The notes under the pieces were generated by a model. The model did not search any database, was not told the DNA's origin, and was given only the letters and a program-made list of their open reading frames with translations. Source: Sphingobium arseniciresistens (lineage in GTDB: Bacteria > Pseudomonadota > Alphaproteobacteria > Sphingomonadales > Sphingomonadaceae). Taken from it: a stretch of DNA of 64,000 nt. Below, piece after piece: positions 37,089-42,916 of this stretch (its first letter is position 1; the number at the start of each line of letters is the position of its first letter). The stretch spans positions 1 through 64,000 of the forward strand of contig JARFNK010000029.1 of the NCBI GenBank assembly GCA_029167225.1, in the 5' to 3' direction. The position numbers were made by a program, and so were the translations under genes.

Positions 37089-38324
37089 TCAGTCATTTGC
37101 AACCGGCAACAATATCGTGATGGTGGTGCCGCGGCCCATGATGCTGGCGATGTCCAGCCGGCCGCGATGACGCTCCACCACATGTTTCACGATGGCGAGG
37201 CCAAGCCCGGTGCCGCCCATTGCCCGGCTGCGCCCGGAATCGACGCGGTAGAAGCGCTCGGTCAGGCGGGGCAGGTGGTCGGGCGCGATCCCTTCGCCCT
37301 CGTCCGCGACGGTCAGCTTCATCATGCCGGGCGATCCGGGGGTCAGGCCGACCGTGATGGGGGTACCGGCGCGCGCATATTTCACCGCATTGCCGATCAG
37401 GTTGTGCAGCACCTGCGAAAGCTGGGCGCGGTCGCCGCGCACCGGCTGCACATCGGCATTGATGGTCGCGACAACATCGCGCCCGCGCTCGCCGCCGCTC
37501 TGGCGGAAGACGTCCACGACCTCGGCGATGACGGCGGAGAGATCGACCTCCGTGTCGGGCGCGCGATATTTCTCCGCCTCGATGCGGGAGAGGGACATGA
37601 GGTCGTCCACCAGCACCTGCATCCGTCGCGCCTCGCCCTCCATGATCTTGAGGAAGCGCGCGCGGGTTTCCTTGTCGGCGCCTGCGACCGGATCGGTCAG
37701 CGTCTCGATGAAACCCAGGATCGCGGCCAGCGGGGTGCGCAGCTCGTGGCTCGCATTGGCGACGAAATCGACCCGCATCCGCTCGGCCGCATAGCTGCCG
37801 GAACGGTCGATCAGATGGACGATGCGGCGCGGCTCGCCGCGGGCCGTGTCAGAAAGCGGCGCAACATGCATTTCCCAGCGCTGGTCGCGGCTGCCAAGGC
37901 CGACAAGGCTGATCGTCATCGGCTCCACCAGCGGCGCCGAACTCGCCAGCTGCTCGGCGGCGGCCGGATGGCGGATGGCGATGCGGACATCCTCGTTCAC
38001 GATATGCGCGCCGAGCAGGCGCAGCGCCGGCCGGTTGGCCCGCGCCACCTTGCCCCGCGCGATCACGATCAGCGGTTCGGAAATCCCCTCCAGCAACAGT
38101 TCGAAGCCGGGATCGTCCAGAAGGTCGGGCGGATCCATCGGCTCGTCCGCGGCCCCCGGCGCGGCGGGCGGCGGCCGGTCCCACAGGATGAACATCGCGA
38201 GCAGCCCGGCGGCACCGGACACCAGCAGCGTCTCGATATTGCCGTTGAACAGCAGGGTGGCCAGCGCGCCGGCCAGTATCACCGTCACGGCGACCAGCAT
38301 CTGGACCGACATCCCCCGCGTCAT
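37089..38324 (-). CDS. phoR: Phosphate regulon sensor histidine kinase PhoR
   Basis: 411 residues. Two N-terminal membrane helices (MLVAVTVILAGALATLLF and LLVSGAAGLLAMFIL) with almost no periplasmic loop, as in PhoR; a PAS region (LLEGISEPLIVIARGKVARANRPALRLLG, quoted by its ends); the H-box NASHELRTPLAAILGF; N-box NLIGNAVKYA; and DEGEGIAP plus GGTGLGLAIVKH for ATP. It phosphorylates PhoB when PstSCAB-PhoU report low phosphate. Start at ATG 38324 (AGGA six bases upstream) is preferred to GTG 38342. It is upstream of the Pho box, so transcribed from its own promoter and possibly reading through into pstS. Confidence 0.93.
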   Translation of the reverse strand: MTRGMSVQMLVAVTVILAGALATLLFNGNIETLLVSGAAGLLAMFILWDRPPPAAPGAADEPMDPPDLLDDPGFELLLEGISEPLIVIARGKVARANRPALRLLGAHIVNEDVRIAIRHPAAAEQLASSAPLVEPMTISLVGLGSRDQRWEMHVAPLSDTARGEPRRIVHLIDRSGSYAAERMRVDFVANASHELRTPLAAILGFIETLTDPVAGADKETRARFLKIMEGEARRMQVLVDDLMSLSRIEAEKYRAPDTEVDLSAVIAEVVDVFRQSGGERGRDVVATINADVQPVRGDRAQLSQVLHNLIGNAVKYARAGTPITVGLTPGSPGMMKLTVADEGEGIAPDHLPRLTERFYRVDSGRSRAMGGTGLGLAIVKHVVERHRGRLDIASIMGRGTTITILLPVAND

Positions 38325-38459
38325 CGGCGTTCCTGCTCCCACTTATTCATGGTTACTGCTCTGGATTCTTTCACATGGAGTTGCGATGGCTAGCCTGAGC
38401 GAACCCATATGCCAATGCAGCGATGACAATTTGGCGTCGTTTACGCTTGATCAGGGAAA

Positions 38460-38921
38460 ATGACGGATAACAGGCGCATGAGCGACGACAAGGATCAGCA
38501 GGCGCCCGCGCAGGGCACGTCACACGGCCCGTCAAACGAGGGACTGGGCAACATGCTGGTGCCCTCGCGCCGGCAGTTGCTGATGGGCGGCGCGGTGGCG
38601 GCCTCGGCGATCGTGTCCATCCGCCCGGCGCTGGCGAGCACGGCCGCATCGGTGCTGAACTGCCAGATCCCCGTGCCTGACCCGGCCCGGTCGGGCAATT
38701 ATGTCGCGCCGGACGGATCGCTGGTCCCCGCCGGGACGGACGGCGCCTTTCCGGCCGCGGGCCGCGCCTTCAAGGGAGAGGACGTCAAGGCGGCGCTGAA
38801 CGGGCGCTCGCTGCCGGGCACCAGCTATGAGCAGAACCAGGCCTATCTCAATTATATCCGCCGCCTGCAGTCGGGGACGAGCGGCTTCACCTGCTATGCC
38901 TCGCTGCAGATGCCGCGATAG
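38460..38921 (+). CDS. Tat-signal protein of the HPr-rel-A cluster, unknown function
   Basis: 153 residues. A 36-residue hydrophilic N-terminal stretch precedes a twin-arginine signal: SRRQLL at 36-41, hydrophobic core GGAVAASAIVSI, and a likely cleavage after RPALA near residue 59. The mature part of ~95 residues has two cysteines, Cys68 in LNCQI and Cys145 in FTCYAS, and ends SLQMPR. No domain is recognised. The first gene of a four-gene cluster, it lies 55 bases before the PqqD-like gene, so it is the natural candidate for the substrate or peptide handled by that system. An alternative start is ATG 38478. Confidence 0.7.
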   Translation: MTDNRRMSDDKDQQAPAQGTSHGPSNEGLGNMLVPSRRQLLMGGAVAASAIVSIRPALASTAASVLNCQIPVPDPARSGNYVAPDGSLVPAGTDGAFPAAGRAFKGEDVKAALNGRSLPGTSYEQNQAYLNYIRRLQSGTSGFTCYASLQMPR

Positions 38922-38976
38922 GATCGCTGACCGGGCCATCGCGTTTTTTTAAGGGATTTGCGGCATAAGGCCGCGG

Positions 38977-39273
38977 ATGAGCGCCATCACCCAAGACCCG
39001 ATCCGCTATGCCGCCTGTCCGGGCAGCGACATGGTCGTGCGCCCACTTGATGCGCTGACCCTGATCTATCATCATCCCTCCGGTCAGACCCATATGGTGG
39101 TGAGTCCCGTGCCGGAGATCATGGACGCGCTTTCTGACGGACCCGCGACCGTGGGAGAGGTGGTTTCACGGCTGGAGGTGGCGTTTGATCTTGGCGCTGC
39201 CAATGAGGCCGCACCCGCCATTGCCGCGCATCTGGAAGAACTGGTCGCGCTCGGATTGGTCGCACGCGCATGA
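38977..39273 (+). CDS. PqqD-like protein of the HPr-rel-A system
   Basis: 98 residues with the PqqD/RRE fold pattern: DMVVRPLDALTLIYHHPSG (beta strands), then a helical C-terminal half ending LEELVALGLVARA, the typical PqqD-family last helix. PqqD-like domains bind leader peptides in RiPP pathways. NCBI families describe an HPr-rel-A-associated PqqD protein in exactly this neighbourhood; I assign it on motif and context. Its TGA overlaps the ATG of the kinase gene (ATGA). Confidence 0.85.
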   Translation: MSAITQDPIRYAACPGSDMVVRPLDALTLIYHHPSGQTHMVVSPVPEIMDALSDGPATVGEVVSRLEVAFDLGAANEAAPAIAAHLEELVALGLVARA

Positions 39274-40133
39274 TGTACGCGATTTCCCTGCGCATCGGCC
39301 CGGCCTGTTTCCGGGTGGGATCGGCATGGGGCGGGCCGATCGACCAGTTGAGCGCATTATATCGCGATTATCCCGCGCCGCTCGCCGGCATCGCGGACTT
39401 CACCGTGCGGCTGGAGCCGGTGAAGCCATGGCGCCGCTGGATCAGGCCGTCGGTGTTCATCACCGGCGACCATGGCCTTGCCGATGCCGCGCCGATGAGC
39501 CTGTGCCATGGCCTGCTGGCCGCTGAAATGGGCATGAACCTGCAGATGGCGCTGGGCTGGCGGCGGCATGTGCTGCTCCATGCCTCCTGCGTCGAGCGCG
39601 ATGGCCGGGCGCTGGTGATGACGGGCGAATCCGGCTCCGGCAAATCGACCCTTGCAGCGATGCTGGGAGAGCGTGGCTGGCGGCTGATGGGCGACGAGTT
39701 CACGCTGCTCGATCCCGTGACGGGGCAGGTGTTCGCCTTTCCGCGCCTCGTTTCGCTCAAGAACGGCGCGATCGAGGTGATGGAGGGGGAAGTGCTCGAC
39801 GGCCGCTTCGGCCCGTTGATGCGGCAGACGCCAAAGGGCGACATCCGCCACCTGCGCCCCCGCGCCGACGCCATCCGGCGCATGGACGAAGGGGCGGTGC
39901 CGGCGCTGCTGCTCTATCCGCGCTATGGCCATGAGGCTGATCGTCGCCCGGTGGGGCCATCCGAAACCTTCATGCGCCTCACGCAGGCATCGACTAACTA
40001 TGTCGCCATGGGCGAGGCGGGGTTCATGGCCTTGTCGCGCTTCTCTAGCGACGTGCCGGCCTGCGCCATCGACTTTCCCAGCGGCGAGGCTGCGGTCGAG
40101 ATGGTGGAACAGCTGTGGGAGCAACTGGCATGA
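39270..40133 (+). CDS. HprK-related kinase A
   Basis: 287 residues. The kinase core begins VLLHASCVERDGRALVMTGESGSGKST (quoted parts): the Walker A loop GESGSGKST is at 119-127, followed by RGWRLMGDEFTLLD with the acidic pair Asp142/Glu143, as in HPr kinase/phosphorylase. The N-terminal ~100 residues are unlike HprK. There is no HPr or PTS gene in the window. HprK-related kinases occur in lasso-peptide and other peptide-modification clusters as well as in this HPr-rel-A system, whose target is unknown. Both ends overlap their neighbours by ATGA, so strict co-translation is expected. Confidence 0.88.
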   Translation: MMYAISLRIGPACFRVGSAWGGPIDQLSALYRDYPAPLAGIADFTVRLEPVKPWRRWIRPSVFITGDHGLADAAPMSLCHGLLAAEMGMNLQMALGWRRHVLLHASCVERDGRALVMTGESGSGKSTLAAMLGERGWRLMGDEFTLLDPVTGQVFAFPRLVSLKNGAIEVMEGEVLDGRFGPLMRQTPKGDIRHLRPRADAIRRMDEGAVPALLLYPRYGHEADRRPVGPSETFMRLTQASTNYVAMGEAGFMALSRFSSDVPACAIDFPSGEAAVEMVEQLWEQLA

Positions 40134-41119
40134 ATGCGAAGCTGCTGGCCCGCGCCCTGCGTGATCCGGGCAGCACCTGCGGCCTCAGCGGCGAGCAGTG
40201 GAACGCGCTCATTGCCATGGCGCGGGGAGAGCGGCTGATCGGCACGCTCGCCATGCGGCTGCAGAACTGGGCGATGCCCGATCGTGTCGCGGCGATCCTG
40301 TCCGACGCCCGGCTCGATGCCGCGCGCGAGCGGCAGCAGGCCCTGTGGGAGGCGGATCGGGCGCACGCCGCACTGGCGCCGCTGGGCATCCCGGTCGTCC
40401 TGCTCAAGGGCACGGCCTATGTCGCGGCAGACCTGAAGGCGGGGGAGGGGCGCTTCATCGGCGATCTCGACATCCTCGTGTCGCGCGAGAAGATCGAGGC
40501 GGTCGAGCAGGCGCTGCTCGGCGCGGGATGGGAATGGGTGAAGTCCGATCCCTATGACGACCTCTATTATCGCCGCTGGATGCATGAACTGCCGCCGATG
40601 ATCCATAGCGCGCGGGACCGGATGATCGACGTGCATCACACCATCCTGCCGCTCACCGCCCGGCAGACGCCGGACGCGGCCGCGATGATCGCCGATGCCG
40701 TGGCCCTGCCCGGCGGGCTCTATGTGCTGTCGCCCGAGGACCGGGTCTGCCACGCCGTCGCGCATCTGCTGGCCGATGGCGACATGTCGGGTGGGATGCG
40801 GAACCTGTGGGACATCCGGTGTCTGCTGGAGGAGATATCGGATCGCCCGGCATTGATGGCTCGGGCGGCGCGGCATGGCCTTGCGCCCTTCGTTGCCCGT
40901 GCGATCCGGCTGGCGGATGCGCTCTATGGCGGCGCGCAGGTCAAGCGGCGGGACAAGCTCTATGTCCGGCACCTGCTGGCGCGCAATCAATGGGGGCAGG
41001 AGATCGGCAGGTCGCTGCGCTTTGCCTTTTTCGTGCGGTCGCACTGGCTGCGGATGCCGCCGAAGATGCTGGCGCGGCACCTGTTCACCAAATGGCGCAA
41101 GGGGCATCGGCCCGCCTGA
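40130..41119 (+). CDS. Nucleotidyltransferase family protein of the HPr-rel-A system
   Basis: 329 residues. The NTP_transf_5-type motif is visible: LGIPVVLLKGTAYVAADLKAG, then GRFIGDLDILVSREKIEAVEQAL with the catalytic-type DLD, then MIDVHHTILPL. These proteins have a polymerase-beta-like nucleotidyltransferase core and a helical C-terminal half; none has a proven substrate. In lasso-peptide gene clusters a similar nucleotidyltransferase accompanies an HprK-like kinase. It ends the operon and overlaps the kinase stop by ATGA. Confidence 0.85.
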   Translation: MNAKLLARALRDPGSTCGLSGEQWNALIAMARGERLIGTLAMRLQNWAMPDRVAAILSDARLDAARERQQALWEADRAHAALAPLGIPVVLLKGTAYVAADLKAGEGRFIGDLDILVSREKIEAVEQALLGAGWEWVKSDPYDDLYYRRWMHELPPMIHSARDRMIDVHHTILPLTARQTPDAAAMIADAVALPGGLYVLSPEDRVCHAVAHLLADGDMSGGMRNLWDIRCLLEEISDRPALMARAARHGLAPFVARAIRLADALYGGAQVKRRDKLYVRHLLARNQWGQEIGRSLRFAFFVRSHWLRMPPKMLARHLFTKWRKGHRPA

Positions 41120-41180: not shown

Positions 41181-41831
41181 TTATCCCTGCGGCGGTGTCG
41201 TCTCGCCGATCTCGTCGCTGTCGATCGTCTGGCCGACATTCATCCCGTGTCGCATCAGCATCGGGATGTTCGACGCGGCAAAGATGAAGGACACGATAGT
41301 CACGCCCCACACCTTCACGGCCAGCCATGTGTCGAAGCTGAGCGACGCGCGCATCGCTTCGTTGGCGATGGCCATGGCGACGAAGAACCACGCCCAGTTG
41401 CGCGACAGCTTCAGCCAGCCTTCCTCCGACAGCCCGTCATAGGCGGCCTGCAGCAGATATTTGAGCAGCGCCTTGCGGCGGATGAGCCCGGCGAACAGCA
41501 TCATCGCGAAGAAGATGTAGATGATCGTCGGCTTGATCTGGATGAAGCGCTGGTCGCGGAAATAGATGGTGAGCGATCCGAAGAAGAGGATCAGCACGGC
41601 CGAGAGCCACAGCATCGGCGACACGCGCTTCAGCTTGATGAGCGAGATGATGACGGCGATGGCGATCGCGGCCATGAAGGCGGCGGTGCCGACGACCATG
41701 GCGCTGATCGGGTTGCCCGCGCCCATGAAGTGGCCGGCGAACTTGTAGGTCAGGAAGAAGACCAGCAGCGGCCCGAAATCGAGAGCAAGGCTGAGCGTGC
41801 CGCCATGCTGCGGGGCCTTGGTTTCAGCCAT
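41181..41831 (-). CDS. Inner-membrane septation protein A family (YciB/IspZ)
   Basis: 216 residues with about six membrane helices. Family segments: LALDFGPLLVFFLTYKF, GLIRRKALLKYLLQAAYDGLSEEGW (quoted in part) and the NWAWFFVAMAIANE helix. IspZ/YciB is involved in cell-envelope and septum synthesis, with direct activity unknown. Start ATG 41831 is preferred; the frame's extension to 41987 is Arg/Ser-rich and passes through a repeat element. It lies downstream of ftsY on the same strand with the degenerate repeat between. Confidence 0.93.
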   Translation of the reverse strand: MAETKAPQHGGTLSLALDFGPLLVFFLTYKFAGHFMGAGNPISAMVVGTAAFMAAIAIAVIISLIKLKRVSPMLWLSAVLILFFGSLTIYFRDQRFIQIKPTIIYIFFAMMLFAGLIRRKALLKYLLQAAYDGLSEEGWLKLSRNWAWFFVAMAIANEAMRASLSFDTWLAVKVWGVTIVSFIFAASNIPMLMRHGMNVGQTIDSDEIGETTPPQG

Positions 41832-41852
41832 AAATAACGATCCTAGCTGACG

Positions 41853-41957
41853 TGCGTTCGCCCTGTTGGAACGCGGCAGGCGACACGTTCCAATGTCGAA
41901 GGGCTCTCCTTCCTTTCGGAAGGGAAGAACGGGGCGTCGACAGGCTCGGCCCGAACG
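41853..41957. repeat. Degenerate sphingomonad repeat with a nested hairpin, copy C
   Basis: Left arm starts GCGTTCGCCCTG and continues TGTCGAAGGGCT after an interruption; right arm GTCGACAGGCTCGG ends CCGAACGG near 41957. Where copies A and B have AGCT, this copy has TTGGAACG, 12 bases, CGTTCCAA (41866-41893), itself a perfect 8-bp hairpin. Confidence 0.6.
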
Positions 41958-41983
41958 GTGAAGAGAGCCATGCGCCGATATCA

Positions 41984-42916
41984 TCACCGCGCATAAGCGG
42001 CTCCCGCGATGGCGCGTGCCATGTCCTCGGCATCGAAGGGGCGCAGGTCCTCGATCTTCTCGCCCACGCCGATGGCATGGATGGGCAGGCGGTATTTCTC
42101 CGCTGCCGCGACCAGCACGCCGCCGCGCGCGGTGCCGTCCAGCTTGGTCATGACCAGCCCCGTCACCTGCGCGACTTCCTTGAACACCTCGATCTGCGAG
42201 AGGGCGTTCTGGCCGGTGGTCGCGTCCAGCACCAGCACGACGTCGTGCGGCGCCGCCGGGTTCAGGCGGCCGAGCACGCGGCGGATCTTCGCCAGTTCCT
42301 CCATCAGCTCGGTCTTGTTCTGCAGCCGGCCGGCGGTATCGACGATCAGCACGTCGATGCCGGTCGCAGTTGCCTGCTTCACCGCCTCGTAGACGATGCC
42401 GGCCGCGTCGCCGCCTTCCTTGCCGGAAACGATGGGGATGTCCAGCCGCTCGGCCCAGACCTTGAGCTGGCCGATGGCGGCCGCGCGGAAGGTGTCGCCC
42501 GCCGCCAGCATCACGCCATAATCCTGCTCCAGGAACAGGTTGGCCAGCTTGGCGATGGTCGTCGTCTTGCCGGAGCCGTTGACGCCGATCACCAGGATTA
42601 CCTGCGGGCGCGGAAACGCCTCGATCTCCAGCGGCTTGGCGACGGGCGCCAGCGTCTTGGTGATTTCCTCCGCGATGATCTCGCGCAGATAGTCCTCGGT
42701 CAGTTCCTTGTTGAACCGCCCCTCGGCCAGCCGCTCGCGCACGCGCGCCGCCATCGCCGGGCCAAGGTCGCTGACGATCAGCGCTTCCTCGATCTCGTCC
42801 AGCGTCTGGTCGTCCAGCGCGGCCTTGGTGAACAGGCCGGTGAGGTTGTCGCCAAGGCGATCGGACGTGCGCTTGAGGCCGCCGAACAGGCGGTCGCGCC
42901 AGCTTGTCTCGCTCAT
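41984..42916 (-). CDS. ftsY: Signal recognition particle receptor FtsY
   Basis: 310 residues: an N-terminal helical bundle (LKRTSDRLGDNLTGLFTKAALD) and the SRP GTPase G domain with G1 GVNGSGKTT (111-119), DTFRAAA, DTAGRLQNK and TKLDGTARGG. The acidic A domain found in E. coli FtsY is absent, as is usual in alphaproteobacteria. It docks SRP-ribosome complexes at the inner membrane and pairs with Ffh encoded at 49.2 kb. Last gene of the dapF-mtaB-ftsY operon, 13 bases after mtaB. Confidence 0.97.
   Translation of the reverse strand: MSETSWRDRLFGGLKRTSDRLGDNLTGLFTKAALDDQTLDEIEEALIVSDLGPAMAARVRERLAEGRFNKELTEDYLREIIAEEITKTLAPVAKPLEIEAFPRPQVILVIGVNGSGKTTTIAKLANLFLEQDYGVMLAAGDTFRAAAIGQLKVWAERLDIPIVSGKEGGDAAGIVYEAVKQATATGIDVLIVDTAGRLQNKTELMEELAKIRRVLGRLNPAAPHDVVLVLDATTGQNALSQIEVFKEVAQVTGLVMTKLDGTARGGVLVAAAEKYRLPIHAIGVGEKIEDLRPFDAEDMARAIAGAAYAR

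Follow-up and report, generated by a model that had tools for sequence, protein, structure and literature searches.

What do the enzymes of an HPr-rel-A gene set act on, and what part is played by the exported protein encoded beside them? These questions are raised by four genes of Sphingobium arseniciresistens that lie within the 64,000-nucleotide stretch of DNA analyzed here (hereafter, the window). Open reading frames on the plus strand between positions 38460 and 41119 encode a Tat-signal protein, a PqqD-like protein, an HprK-like kinase, and a nucleotidyltransferase (Table 1). The families of the kinase and of the PqqD-like protein are already named in NCBIfam. A search of the open-access literature yielded no paper on HPr-rel-A, HprK-related kinases, or NTP_transf_5, and none that joins HprK with PqqD and a nucleotidyltransferase, or PqqD with an exosortase. 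It is argued below, largely from sequence comparison, that the four genes probably work together in modifying and exporting a protein, the Tat protein being the likely dedicated substrate, decorated before export.

Table 1. Features of the gene set and its immediate surroundings
Feature	Position	Strand	Remarks
PhoR-like histidine kinase, divergent neighbor	37089..38342	-	kept across the order; genomic context
Tat-signal partner protein, likely substrate	38460..38921	+	153 aa; signal at about residues 37-61; predicted acceptor Ser148
Tat protein tail, SGFTCYASLQMPR	residues 141-153 of the 153-aa protein		
PqqD_rel_X (TIGR04353), RRE-like recognition protein	38977..39273	+	98 aa
HprK_rel_A (TIGR04352), HprK-like kinase	39270..40133	+	287 aa
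NTP_transf_5 (PF14907) nucleotidyltransferase	40130..41119	+	329 aa from ATG at 40130

Gene Layout and Family Assignment

The original prediction described four genes in one direction, three of them joined by ATGA sequences, and this arrangement is confirmed. The two overlaps are located at 39270-39273 (pqqD and kinase) and 40130-40133 (kinase and nucleotidyltransferase), and a gap of 55 bases separates the Tat gene from pqqD. The Tat protein, which carries the Tat-like signal RRQLLMGGA..ALA, might also start at 38478, where its profile match begins, and an earlier GTG at 40115 appears in the open reading frame listing as an alternative start for the nucleotidyltransferase.

As had been proposed, the set is of the HPr-rel-A type: in NCBIfam scans the kinase scores 218.9 bits for TIGR04352 (cut-off 200) and the PqqD-like protein 64.5 bits for TIGR04353 (cut-off 35), which places both in these families. 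A Pfam scan of the nucleotidyltransferase gave 180.5 bits for PF14907, and the Tat protein of the window matched no NCBIfam or Pfam family at an E value of 0.1. The GESGSGKST loop of the kinase is intact, and the presence of GDLDILV agrees with the earlier assignment of the nucleotidyltransferase to the DLD type.

Against the profile for HPr(Ser) kinase proper (TIGR00679), the window kinase scores 23 of 240 bits, which is under the cut-off. The reported lack of an HPr gene in the window also holds, with all three genome matches to PF00381 located on other contigs. Contig C99 of the same genome carries another HprK-like gene and an HPr gene about 1.4 kb apart. Because this other HprK-like gene lies close to the HPr gene, the window kinase looks like a second, specialized one. 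A defense role for the set was rejected, as PADLOC gave no matches for any of the four proteins.

Distribution of the Gene Set

In the sample taken from the order, a kinase over the cut-off is present in 126 of 296 genomes, and the Tat profile is matched in 88, all of which are among the 126. Within the family to which the window belongs (about 213 sampled genomes, counted from the listing), the Tat profile and the kinase over the cut-off occur in the identical 70 genomes, with no discordance. An internal contrast is provided by one genus (g11), in which three sampled genomes carry both genes and four carry neither. These co-occurrence counts are not independent because the genomes are related. 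The Tat profile gives a single match in 86 of the 88 genomes. The 18 matches outside the window's family are weak and mostly cover the signal part, and in three genomes (G029, G055 for one of its two matches, and G070) a match falls on a different contig from the kinase.

By coordinates, the kinase and Tat genes are unlinked in 13 of the 70 genomes, comprising 12 from a single genus (g6) and G053. In the unlinked genomes that were read (G267, G119, and G053), the Tat gene has kept its place next to phoR, and in G053 a pqqD gene accompanies it. All four genes are present in 83 of the 112 loci of the initial set, including that of the window and that of the laboratory Sphingobium strain SYK-6 (L099); most of the remaining loci are short and come from other families of the order, and their Tat proteins are too divergent for that search. 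Free variation of the neighbors between genomes had been named in advance as an outcome that would count against the system. Instead, the four-gene order is kept in these loci and is matched across the family, and it is the downstream genes that do vary. The original prediction had left the Tat protein without a purpose; by these comparisons it is the constant partner and the likely substrate.

In broader samples, a kinase over the cut-off was found in 9 of 337 genomes at the class level and in 61 of 398 at the phylum level, these samples including 2 and 13 members of the order, respectively. It was found in none of the 14 control genomes, for the class and phylum samples alike. Another 53 kinase loci outside the named set, eight of which belong to the window's family, were collected, and 49 of them have a Tat-signal protein upstream on the same strand, about 4 kb away in the case of L161. 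For L145, L201, and L203 the Tat-signal protein is encoded elsewhere in the genome (L200, L202, and L204), and no Tat partner is present on the 4.5-kb contig of L194. At L206 the Tat gene is cut by the contig end, and a signal match occurs at the end of another contig. Examination by eye of the Tat-unlinked enzyme trios at L201 and L203 revealed a gene for a MarR-like regulator just upstream of pqqD.

Conservation and Models of the Enzymes

Non-functional kinase loops in relatives had likewise been named as a possible refutation, and none was encountered: an alignment of 26 kinases has H104, the P-loop residues Gly122, Gly124, K125, and Thr127, and the pair D142-E143 invariant. The His-Lys-Asp-Asp set of lasso kinases is presumably represented by H104, K125, and D142 followed by E143, so that the presumed fourth residue, Asp in the lasso kinases, is Glu in the window kinase; this correspondence to PadeK is putative. 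Among 29 aligned nucleotidyltransferases, D112, D114, D167, and H169-H170 are invariant. Judged by their sequences, the kinase and the nucleotidyltransferase both look active.

The model of the nucleotidyltransferase (pLDDT 93.7) resembles pol-beta type nucleotidyltransferases, its best fold matches being MenT1 and ANT(2'') nucleotidyltransferases with modest overlap (best E value 2.2e-4; TM 0.37 by query length). Searches for solved relatives returned none for the nucleotidyltransferase or the PqqD-like protein and P-loop matches only for the kinase.

The Tat Partner Protein

Read by eye, the partner proteins share a common plan. A Tat signal is usually followed closely by a Cys; the middle varies and is often of low complexity, and the end is more constant. 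The end is the most conserved region in the window's family, with a mean majority share of 0.97 versus 0.41-0.82 elsewhere. All 83 near partners, including that of the window, end with T-C-x-x-S plus a short tail. The choice of distant partners relied on Tat signal and position, with a script for some and inspection by eye for others; six further loci were also read by eye. Among 44 distant partners, 35 have C-x-x-S within their last 60 residues, in every case preceded by S, T, or N (Ser in 30, Thr in four, and Asn in one) and always with Ser as the last residue of the motif; reading by eye located C-x-x-S also in the L234 partner, which is outside the 44. In the last 60 residues of control genes, C-x-x-S occurs in 7 of 244 and [STN]-C-x-x-S in 1 of 244, where the controls are heuristic calls from class- and phylum-level loci only and still contain other genes of the set. 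These patterns make the C-terminal tail of the Tat protein the best candidate for the modification site.

The motif is not universal. It is absent from 13 of 49 distant partners (L193, L229, L231, L232, L238-L240, and L243-L248), nine of them among the 44 and four among the loci read by eye, which constitute a second kind, and therefore a single acceptor site cannot serve every member; the idea of one acceptor motif for all partners is ruled out. Several second-kind partners, as noted by eye, have in common a Cys that precedes a G-[YWF]-rich stretch, and those at L231, L232, L240, L243, L244, L247, and L248 look like an undescribed family. A kinase tree with 54 rows, of which 52 were labeled, requires 2 changes of partner kind versus 11.8 for shuffled labels, and none of 500 shuffles gave a value as low, a comparison that asks only whether the partner kinds cluster.

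A pattern in the signal peptide, P-x-x-x-[TS]-[LIFMVA], is present in 34 of 34 distant partners of the C-x-x-S class and in three of nine others. This pattern was picked after the sequences had been inspected, and the window's family has Ser in the Pro position. It occurs in none of 20 other Tat-like signals of the window's own genome; these controls came from 23 loci, three of which yielded none, and some of them (for example, L249 and L256) look like wrong frames. In view of this pattern in distant partners, the PqqD-like protein may, as suggested at the outset, bind the Tat protein near its N-terminus.

The model of the window Tat protein is poor overall (mean pLDDT 66), with a confident core at about residues 81-130 and low confidence in the tail. 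It matched no PDB fold at an E value of 0.001, and comparison of the Tat profile with solved structures gave one weak match (E value 0.14). None of eleven partner proteins scanned (that of the window and ten distant ones) reaches an NCBIfam or Pfam cut-off. Two further features of individual partners were recorded. Two Tat partner genes lie side by side in the sets at L146:7704-9112 and L159:10731-12320, and the partners at L153, L154, L157, and L205 have Asp-rich or Ser-Asp/His-Asp runs in mid-protein that are like the spacers of surface proteins.

Genomic Neighborhood and Alternative Roles

A search for an additional constant member, as had been recommended, found only the phoR-pst group besides the four genes to recur in most of the 72 named loci that exceed 16 kb, according to clustered heuristic gene calls. 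Nothing downstream of the set recurs in more than 34 of these 72. Genes for septation protein A and FtsY lie downstream of the set at 41181-42916 in the window, and downstream neighbors encoding a septation protein, FtsY, or a MiaB-like protein occur in none of the 80 named loci.

The association with phoR raises the prospect that the set serves phosphate control, either by modifying a component of the Pho regulon or by reporting the phosphate state to PhoR. Of the 80 named loci, 78 have a divergent phoR upstream, and L051 and L065, which make up the remainder, are cut by contig ends; it is likewise there in 17 of 20 further loci from the order and in 3 of 13 loci of a mixed set. Furthermore, in the three genomes read in which the enzymes have moved away, the Tat gene is still found by phoR. 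Such a role is nevertheless very improbable. A phoR relative is found near the set in none of 20 phylum-level loci, and a search for a Pho box upstream of the Tat gene gave no clear enrichment, as the threshold was reached in 12 of 97 regions versus 7% of shuffles. In the three genomes with moved enzymes (L200, L202, and L204), phoR and the Tat gene keep the adjacent, divergent arrangement of the window (37089-38460).

Other neighbors relate to polysaccharides. In 23 of the 80 named loci, and in no other named locus, the Tat gene and pqqD are separated by a glycosyltransferase gene; one such protein was scanned, and its best match was an XrtA-system glycosyltransferase, well below the cut-off. 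Nine proteins from five distant loci, chosen for their polysaccharide-like look, were also scanned. Genes at four of the five loci (L229, L230, L235, and L240) match XrtA/PEP-CTERM polysaccharide families, and at L242 the one scanned protein matches a flippase-like domain only, below the cut-off. At L230 and L235, a gene for the XrtA amidotransferase (TIGR03108), which is under the lasso cyclase cut-off, follows the nucleotidyltransferase gene. This gene context suggests a surface-polysaccharide role. The window's genome has one exosortase match, which is off the window's contig; it lies at G000:C99:181237-184551, and a strong match to asparagine synthase comes within the next 2 kb, an arrangement like that of an XrtA-type locus.

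The same glycosyltransferase genes and XrtA/PEP-CTERM matches would also fit a scheme in which the enzymes modify a small molecule or glycan and the Tat protein is a co-working effector that handles the product outside the cell. This scheme is unlikely for three reasons: to our knowledge, PqqD-type and RRE proteins act on a peptide or protein; the hypervariable middle of the Tat protein between constant ends suits a substrate better than an enzyme; and the protein has no likeness to a curated family or solved fold. A substrate role for the Tat protein remains the preferred reading.

Comparison with Known Systems

Two described systems combine similar enzymes, with leaders and export routes that differ from those proposed here. 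In paeninodin- and pseudomycoidin-type lasso peptides, the kinases PadeK, ThcoK, and SyanK, the last of which comes from a Sphingobium, are described as phosphorylating the C-terminal Ser of the precursors, and the nucleotidyltransferase PsmN as required for the hexoses found on that Ser phosphate (PMC9266682). The present set resembles these clusters in pairing an HprK-like kinase, there acting on a C-terminal Ser, with a nucleotidyltransferase (PMC9266682). A likeness to the modification part of lasso clusters without the cyclase and protease had been recognized at the outset, and it withstands scrutiny. The lasso leader protease (PF13471) has five matches in the genome and asparagine synthase (PF00733) has ten, with no match to either on the window's contig, and a lasso peptide cluster is rejected on these grounds. 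PF13471 is absent altogether from 15 of 30 system-bearing genomes. The PF13471 matches of the window's genome, on contigs C1, C40, C35, C32, and C12, each lie within a few kb of an asparagine-synthase match, and the genome probably has five lasso clusters away from the window.

The second system is that of the linear polyphosphorylated peptides (LPPs), whose reported production in Bacilli depends on an RRE, together with an HprK-like kinase and an NTP transferase encoded in capsule loci (PMC13381572). According to this source, LppK phosphorylates Ser3 and refuses Thr or Tyr at that position, deletion of the NTP transferase LppN brings no visible change in a heterologous host, and LPPs and paeninodins are restricted to Bacillota; its main text does not contain the terms twin-arginine, Proteobacteria, Pseudomonadota, PqqD, or TIGR04352 (PMC13381572). 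At the level of enzyme types, the present set and the LPP loci have in common a discrete recognition protein, an HprK-like kinase, and an NTP transferase; a key Ser in the precursor, here a putative one, and a polysaccharide-locus setting are further parallels (PMC13381572). They differ in export, as LPP precursors are described with a YxxP-type leader, cleavage by a SipW-like peptidase, and an MsbA-like transporter, whereas the window has a Tat-signal protein and a PqqD-type protein (PMC13381572). The LPP leader motif YxxPxVLxHQxIxFETxxS is absent from the 153-residue protein on reading, and gene clustering found no SipW-like peptidase or MsbA-like transporter that recurs in most of the 72 named loci. 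A more distant parallel is SynChlorMet, which likewise pairs a kinase (ScmC, TIGR04249) with a PqqD relative (ScmD, TIGR04248); these matches are weak, with scores far under the cut-offs (24.2 of 125 and 13.9 of 100 bits, respectively).

Enzyme types shared with LPP and paeninodin clusters, together with the two partner copies at L146 and L159, might be taken to mean that the exported protein is the precursor of a linear RiPP, whose active product would be a modified C-terminal peptide set free by cleavage. We regard this as improbable, because heuristic gene calls show no protease gene shared by a majority of the 72 named loci, the core of the window protein is confidently predicted, and nearly all genomes with the Tat profile have a single match.

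Proposed Mechanism

The favored reading, that the whole Tat protein is the substrate, can be set out as a series of steps whose order is itself conjectural. The Tat protein would be made in the cytoplasm, and the PqqD-like protein might bind it in the way that leaders are bound by RREs. The Tat signal is a possible binding site, and occupying it would also delay export. Next, the HprK-like kinase could phosphorylate the invariant tail Ser of [S/T]-C-x-x-S, which in the window would be Ser148. Finally, the nucleotidyltransferase might add a nucleotide or a sugar-derived group to the Ser phosphate. This step is the weakest of the proposal because LppN was without effect in a heterologous host. 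The modification is placed in the cytoplasm because nucleotides are available there.

The Tat pathway carries folded, finished proteins, which would explain the use of this route. The folded, decorated protein would exit via Tat, as its signal suggests, and may work at the cell surface or in extracellular polysaccharide.

Implications

That the Tat protein nearly always travels with the kinase, nucleotidyltransferase, and PqqD-like protein suggests that the set decorates it before export. A named but purposeless gene set thereby gains a concrete candidate substrate and a single candidate residue. More tentatively, such sets might produce widespread secreted phospho- or phosphoglycoproteins of proteobacteria, in which the HprK-like kinase and the nucleotidyltransferase decorate a dedicated Tat substrate on a C-terminal Ser. 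The PqqD-type protein would then serve both in recognition and in Tat proofreading, as a chaperone that delays export until decoration is complete, and the protein would be anchored to surface polysaccharide through its decorated tail.

If the proposed modification is true, the kinase and nucleotidyltransferase chemistry of small peptides, which is best described in Bacillota, would extend to whole exported proteins in Proteobacteria, and RRE-type recognition would be joined to the Tat pathway. It would also explain the placement of these genes in polysaccharide and phosphate loci.
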